NCBI GenBank assembly: GCA_028693395.1
Contig: JAQUVJ010000013.1
Coordinates: forward strand, 1 to 35,615
Source of the DNA: Candidatus Nanoarchaeia archaeon
GTDB lineage: Archaea > Nanobdellota > Nanobdellia > Woesearchaeales > JAQUVJ01
Length of the DNA: 35,615 nucleotides
Reading direction: 5' to 3'
Below, piece by piece: positions 34,579 through 35,615 of this stretch. Made by a program: the position numbers and the translations under genes. Within the stretch, counting starts at the first letter, position 1, and every line of letters begins with the position of its first letter. The notes under the pieces were generated by a model, which had not been told where the DNA came from, did not search any database, and worked only from the letters and a program-made list of their open reading frames with translations.

Positions 34579-35253
34579 TTAAATTAAATCATTATCTTTA
34601 AAACTATAATATGAATCTTTTGTCAATATCAAATGATCTAACAAAGGAATTCCTAACATTTTTCCTGCTTCATAAATTATATTTGTTATTCTTTTATCTT
34701 CTTCTGATGGTTCATTTTGATTGGAAGGGTGATTATGAGCAATTATTATTGAACATGAATTATTTTGTATTGCATGATTAAATATTTCTCTTGGGTGTAT
34801 TATACATTCATTTAAAGAACCTTTAAAAATAGTTTTCAATGATATAATATTACTTGCTGTATTTAGACACATTAAGATTAATCTTTCTTGATTTATATCA
34901 TCTATTTCTTTTATGAAAATATTATAAGCATCATCTGAATTCTTTATCTTAGTAATATCTTTATGAGATTTTATTTTATTTAGTCTTCTATGAATCTCAA
35001 TCATTGCTAAAATCTCACAAGCTTTCACTTCACCTATTCCTTTAAATTCTTTTAATTTTTTTAAATTTAGATTTTCAAATTCTGTTTCAGGATATTTTGT
35101 TAGAATTTTTTGTGAAACATCTATAACATTTTCTTTTTTTGTACCTGTCTTTATTATTATTGCTAAAAGCTCTTGAAAAGATAATTCTTTTAATCCGAAT
35201 TTAATTAATTTTTCTCTTGGTCTTAATATAAAATCAATATCTTTTATTTTCAT
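34579..35253 (-). CDS. radC: RadC-like JAB-domain protein
   Basis: HhH LKEFKGIGEVKACEILAMIEIHRRL, then HPREIFNHAIQNNSCSIIIAHNHPSNQNEPSEEDKRIT (JAB HxH..S metal site). Confidence 0.92.
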   Translation of the reverse strand: MKIKDIDFILRPREKLIKFGLKELSFQELLAIIIKTGTKKENVIDVSQKILTKYPETEFENLNLKKLKEFKGIGEVKACEILAMIEIHRRLNKIKSHKDITKIKNSDDAYNIFIKEIDDINQERLILMCLNTASNIISLKTIFKGSLNECIIHPREIFNHAIQNNSCSIIIAHNHPSNQNEPSEEDKRITNIIYEAGKMLGIPLLDHLILTKDSYYSFKDNDLI

Positions 35254-35347: not shown

Positions 35348-35615
35348 AATAATAGAATAATAAGCACTCAGAGGGATTATCACCAAACTTTTTTATGCGA
35401 AAAAGTTTGAACAAAACGCATTTACTTTAGAAAAGTAAACAAAGAAAACCGGTAAACAGTAAGCTGTAATTAAAATATAGGAAATTTAAATAATAGAATA
35501 ATAAGCACTCAGAGGGATTATCACCAAACTTTTTTATGCGAAAAAGTTTGAACAAAACGCATTTACTTTAGAAAAGTAAACAAAGAAAACCGGTAAACAG
35601 TAAGCTGTAATTAAA
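35348..35615. repeat. 141-bp tandem repeat, 1.9 copies visible, truncated by the window edge
   Basis: 35348-35488 repeated at 35489-35615 with no mismatch seen over 127 nt. The unit contains a CAAACTTTTT/AAAAAGTTTG hairpin, a TTTACTTT/AAAGTAAA hairpin, ACCGGT, and ACAG-TAAG-CTGT. Confidence 0.95.

Follow-up and report, generated by a model that had tools for sequence, protein, structure and literature searches.

We propose that the 141-bp unit repeated at the end of the DNA stretch analyzed here (the window; 35,615 nucleotides, contig JAQUVJ010000013.1 of a Candidatus Nanoarchaeia archaeon) is a non-autonomous, double-hairpin mini-element that duplicates its target, inserts at gene ends and was amplified in tandem behind a tRNA-Thr gene, and we put the probability of this reading at roughly three in four. 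On the best reading of the data, the element prefers gene ends, above all those of tRNA genes. The proposal is built on features seen in the sequence, that is, the array, its junction with the tRNA gene, the direct repeats and the dispersed homologs that carry direct repeats of their own.

Two units are found at the window end: unit A (35348 to 35488) and unit B (35489 to 35615), the second of which is cut by the contig end. Their sense strand, taken as that of the tRNA gene, is the minus strand in the window. All 127 visible nucleotides of the second unit equal those of the first (35348 to 35474 versus 35489 to 35615, 100% identity at a spacing of 141), which confirms the tandem repeat described in an earlier note made from the letters of this DNA; the unit is also less AT-biased than the preceding spacer, as that note had said (27% versus 15% GC). 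The final 127 nucleotides of the contig are an exact copy of an earlier 127-mer, and the match ends before 128. This is the pattern expected of a short-read assembler that halts at a repeated k-mer; at least four copies are seen on two contigs. The only other place with the unit in the organism's own genome (1.12 Mb, 48 contigs) is the start of contig C42 (L002, 1 to 317). The opening 21 bases of C42 are exactly the last 21 bases of the window, and joining the contigs at this overlap makes unit B exactly 141 bp long; its last 14 bp lie on C42 (L002, 22 to 35) if the overlap is a true join. The array, which had been suspected of running past the window, continues on C42 with two further units (C and D) of about 138 bp, in a stretch 94% like that of the window. 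There, the units directly abut a tRNA-Thr(CGT) gene that is oriented with its 3′ end toward the array. On one side, the array is flanked by a radC-like gene (34579 to 35253, minus strand; Pfam RadC, E = 3.4e-41), which lies outside the element, and beyond the tRNA-Thr gene follow genes for an archease and an Lhr-type helicase.

What the earlier note missed is a copy of the tRNA-Thr(CGT) 3′ end at every unit boundary. Each unit in the window contains GCACTCAGAGGGATT (35364 to 35378 and 35505 to 35519), the reverse complement of the tRNA 3′ end; read on the minus strand, the copy in unit A is AATCCCTCTGAGTGC, compared to AATCCCTCTGACAGC in the host tRNA, and the copies look like the direct repeats of a target duplication. 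On the plus strand, GCTGTCAGAGGGATT is shared by unit D and the tRNA, and GCACTCAGAGGGATT is found in units A to C. Since no tRNA ending in GAGTGC was found in the 88%-complete assembly of the own genome, the variant end in units A to C is, as far as this assembly shows, probably the result of drift and not the mark of another tRNA. The own genome also has a second tRNA-Leu(TAA) gene (L025; contig C5, 18551 to 18634) that encodes its CCA end and looks bacterial, and the contig that carries it is possibly contaminating or mobile.

Next to the tRNA-end copy lies hairpin H2 (35384 to 35409 in unit A and 35525 to 35550 in unit B), which reads CAAACTTTTT-TATGCG-AAAAAGTTTG on the plus strand and CAAACTTTTT-CGCATA-AAAAAGTTTG in the sense direction and has homologous hairpins in relatives. 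Hairpin H1 (35421 to 35439 and 35562 to 35580) reads TTTACTTT-AGA-AAAGTAAA on the plus strand and TTTACTTT-TCT-AAAGTAAA in the sense direction, and it is followed on the plus strand by ACCGGT and ACAGTAAGCTGT. The two hairpins and both motifs stand in each unit where they had been described before. The H-type pseudoknot that had been predicted from the loop of H2 found little support: on both strands, the unit folds no better than shuffled sequence (z = −0.5 and −0.6), a complement of the 5-nucleotide loop occurs within 25 nucleotides in 7% of shuffled flanks, and the pseudoknot is absent from the homologous hairpins, in which the loop bases lengthen the stem instead. The reading as a pseudoknotted noncoding RNA is likewise not supported, and the Rfam families matched nothing but tRNA in the window and L002. 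Covariation of the hairpin is not demonstrable; the hairpin is conserved in sequence. Tandem repeats with a possible pseudoknot had also suggested the antitoxin array of a type III toxin-antitoxin system. However, the toxin gene that defines such systems is missing, as no toxin ORF adjoins the array (the neighbors are radC, archease and the Lhr-type helicase), and the pseudoknot is not conserved per repeat, so that an antitoxin array can practically be dismissed. GNA-type triloops, known from very stable DNA hairpins, are frequent in hairpins of the element (units of the complete genome G082, L094, L240 and L257), with examples such as GCGAAGC, CCGGAGG and ACGTAGT.

The whole unit is specific to its own genome, and what is common to relatives is the hairpin core and the architecture. 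No second copy of the 141-nucleotide unit was found by BLASTN in 100 relatives, by a covariance model (R1) in 359 genomes or in phage and plasmid records. A hairpin pattern scan of genome contigs gave 19 bacterial matches, which looked unrelated and were rejected, and a marginal hairpin match in the own genome (C8:2037) was dropped because it sits in apparent coding sequence.

In relatives, all of the same order, the layout recurs with other sequences: a tRNA gene is followed by a short unit, often with a hairpin, and then by an exact copy of the 3′ end of that tRNA. In a mechanical scan, 33 of 241 distinct tRNA genes had at least 11 nucleotides of their own 3′ end again within 500 bp downstream, in a set partly chosen by similarity to tRNA-Thr and tRNA-Lys; the control directions, upstream and antisense, gave 0 each. 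Own-end copies were found for tRNAs of the types Lys, Thr, Arg, Val, Cys, Leu, Met, Gln, Ile, Ala, Ser, Tyr and Gly. Since the copies match each host tRNA, they derive from the target. Counted per genome, a downstream copy was present at 17 of 40 tRNA genes in G082, which was included because units were already known there, at 4 of 35 in G054, 2 of 29 in G020, 2 of 16 in G039, 1 of 10 in G010, 0 of 31 in G014 and 1 of 31 in the own genome, and both control directions again gave 0. At six tRNA genes (in G082, G054 and G020), copies of the 5′ end lie upstream. The richest case found is G082, a complete archaeal genome (e.g., L066 and L207 to L230). Its units form a family, most of which end in CAAGCTTTTTTGC..GCAAAAAAGATTG, followed by 3 to 12 nucleotides and then the copy of the host tRNA. 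The tRNA-Thr(CGT) genes of several relatives have no unit. In G051, units of 66 bp stand in tandem, and there, too, the contig ends inside the units. At another locus (L095; G071:C35, 1573 to 1705), the 3′ half of a tRNA-Lys that has an intron is repeated exactly in tandem over 67 bp, intron sequence included, and a hairpin unit follows. No report of such an arrangement in archaea was found in the literature searched.

The 3′ end of a tRNA gene is the classic att position, and its recurrence at every unit boundary would also fit tandem integration by a tyrosine integrase with the tRNA 3′ end as attB. An attP, however, fits one tRNA, whereas here the matching ends that one family bears belong to a dozen kinds of tRNA and also to protein genes. 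In view of the duplications, the target-matched copies and the insertions in unrelated genes, we give an array of att sites next to no credence.

Dispersed copies were searched for with a covariance model (R2) of the G082 unit hairpin, which was built partly from units found through their direct repeats. Below an E value of 1e-3, R2 has about 38 matches in G082; its four matches in the own genome all lie in the array, on the minus strand, and include unit A. Direct repeats of at least 12 bp are present at 22 of 33 examined places in G082, compared to 1.1% of random positions, and at 7 of the 16 places that had been left out of model building. The most informative sites are those other than tRNA 3′ ends, protein genes among them: in G082, the element lies just past the stop codon of a ferredoxin gene with a 14-bp direct repeat, and in other genomes two genes have it at their starts, namely a ribosomal S15-like gene, where it lies ahead of the start codon and the direct repeat is a perfect 26 bp, and a zinc-ribbon-like gene, where the direct repeat is 17 bp (the latter two names were assigned by eye from the protein sequences). 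At two tRNA-Ser genes of G082, the element is inverted at the 5′ end and accompanied by a copy of that end. The direct repeats measure 14 to 26 bp at clean insertions and about 12 to 29 bp overall, and they look like the target-site duplications of a mobile element, whose minimal body would be the about 60 to 80 bp that hold the two hairpins. Hence, relatives have dispersed copies at unrelated sites with direct repeats, and the own genome has a single site. The role as a satellite or mobile repeat, one of several entertained in the earlier note, is thereby supported in the more specific form of a double-hairpin mini-element with target duplication.

Which enzyme might move the element? No Y1 transposase was found in G082 and no RVT_1 reverse transcriptase in G082 or the own genome; Cas1 is absent from both and present in 1 of 16 genomes. 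All three are missing from the richest genome. The own genome has a single Y1 (IS200/IS605-type) transposase ORF, which is without stops (L341; C35:870-1220). Small dispersed palindromic elements with two hairpins are known as REP/REPIN palindromes, which are associated with a Y1 transposase (RAYT); the element described here differs from them in its direct repeats and in the lack of a Y1 enzyme in G082. Similar in size and form are the double-hairpin elements of fungal and sponge mitochondria, which are short, noncoding, probably mobile and intergenic, often near tRNA genes (PMC2800124), but those of fungi are reported without flanking duplications (PMC2800124), whereas direct repeats are common in the archaeal element. 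In their targets, casposons come close: family 2 enters tRNA genes, family 1 enters protein genes at the 3′ end, and the duplications are 14 bp long (PMC6614799). The targets seen here resemble these, as do duplications near 14 to 16 bp. The units could thus be miniature casposons, short DNA placed at tRNA 3′ ends by a Cas1-type casposase with duplications of about 14 bp. The element, however, has neither Cas1 nor a large coding body, Cas1 is lacking even in the element-rich G082, and the duplications often exceed 14 bp, which makes this origin highly improbable.

The hairpin is not confined to sites with direct repeats. When the whole order was scanned, the hairpin was present below an E value of 1e-3 in 82 of 341 genomes, and many of the best matches, in other families, sit within tRNA introns and have no direct repeat; therefore, the hairpin may be common to intron structures. 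Cutting out a stretch around the hairpin restored a predicted tRNA across the junction in 10 of 28 loci, compared to 0 of 28 control positions. In families such as f10 and f38 (L308 to L335), the hairpin stands antisense in tRNA introns, several of them at the T loop, and it is apparently also present in 16S rRNA genes (L308 and L309). There may thus be a connection between the element and mobile introns. In the archaeal order Thermoproteales, similar short sequences have spread among tRNA genes as introns by unknown means (reviewed in PMC4090602); unlike these, the element leaves the tRNA intact alongside and also hits the ends of protein genes. It is imaginable that the units are relics of T-loop introns, in which the intron end and the second exon remain after the tRNA has regained an intact 3′ end. 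The intron matches, some at the T loop, agree with this, as does the unit end in the window, GTTTGGTGATA-ATCCC, which resembles intron ends such as GGTTGGTGAAAG-TCCC. Yet relics would leave the clean direct repeats of 17 to 26 bp at protein genes unexplained, and the unit starts, judged by eye, seem unpaired with the unit ends where a splice motif requires pairing. We therefore regard the intron relic as improbable.

By architecture, the closest known thing is the 178-bp (rtT) repeats behind tyrT of Escherichia coli. In the tyrT-tyrV locus of E. coli K-12 (NC_000913, L307), examined as a control, copies of the tRNA-Tyr 3′ end recur at 178-bp spacings, each beginning with AATCC a few bases past a GC-rich hairpin. 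As in the archaeal units, there is a tandem behind a tRNA, with a hairpin, a few nucleotides and an exact 3′-end copy that starts with AATCC, and the array in question likewise consists of tandem units downstream of a tRNA gene, each ending in the tRNA 3′ end. The differences are that rtT is bacterial, was seen at one locus, has an unrelated sequence and a 178-bp unit, and that a dispersed family at other genes is not part of the rtT picture obtained here. The tyrT-tyrV spacer also ends in the hairpin-forming GGAGCGAAGCGACG and a tRNA-Tyr 3′-end copy, a diverged extra unit.

Bosl and Kersten (1991, cited in PMC4986893) described RtT as an RNA that is released from a tRNA operon and affects the stringent response. 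By analogy, the archaeal units could be functional RNAs cotranscribed with the tRNA, with the tRNA-end copies serving as processing aids or decoys. Consistent with such a role, the E. coli units share the layout and give an RNA, the unit lies on the tRNA strand in every 3′ case, and the hairpin that precedes the copy exceeds shuffled sequence in stability (mean z = −1.3, compared to −0.26 for control windows). Furthermore, copies A, C and D do not differ in the hairpin core: a post hoc comparison gave 16 variable columns, 0 of them in columns 6 to 77, which hold both hairpins and most of the tRNA-end copy. Gene conversion could also have produced this invariant core. Against a functional RNA, copies are also found inverted at tRNA 5′ ends and at the ends of protein genes, the same-type tRNA genes of relatives are mostly without the element, and the Rfam RtT model gave no match at its gathering score in the window and L002, where only tRNA was matched. 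On balance, a functional RNA seems unlikely as the explanation of the units.

We therefore favor the mobile mini-element. In our model, the element would consist of a noncoding core (H1, linker and H2) with variable flanks. A single copy would have inserted at the 3′ end of tRNA-Thr(CGT) and duplicated about 15 to 17 bp of the target, so that the tRNA retained an intact 3′ end and the end that was displaced turned into the copy on the far side. The direct repeats would thus originate from insertion. The element presumably moves as DNA, with an RNA intermediate as an alternative. The insertion would then have multiplied into the tandem array of at least four units, and we infer that tandem growth, here and in G051, arose most simply through slippage at the identical repeats or unequal recombination among them. 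Several findings count against the model: the length of the direct repeats varies (about 12 to 29 bp), unlike that left by a transposase with a fixed stagger, the searches found no enzyme that would move the element, the own genome holds the element at one place only, and the intron matches of the hairpin are often free of direct repeats.

More tentatively, and with the odds somewhat against it, the element may represent an undescribed class of archaeal mobile mini-elements that are not moved by Cas1, RVT_1 or Y1 and that target tRNA and protein genes at their ends, in either orientation, duplicating the gene end. The tyrT (rtT) repeats of E. coli would then be what such a process has left behind in a bacterium, and some of the spread of archaeal tRNA introns may belong to it as well. 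Arrays of this type interrupt short-read assemblies and can be mistaken for arrays of noncoding RNAs. The question posed is how short pieces of hairpin DNA, or RNA copies, come to be inserted at gene ends when a known candidate enzyme is lacking. If the wider proposal is true, the tRNA-end repeats behind tyrT, a bacterial puzzle for decades, would be one case of a more general process, and the tRNA genes of these tiny archaeal genomes would hold a natural record of insertions.
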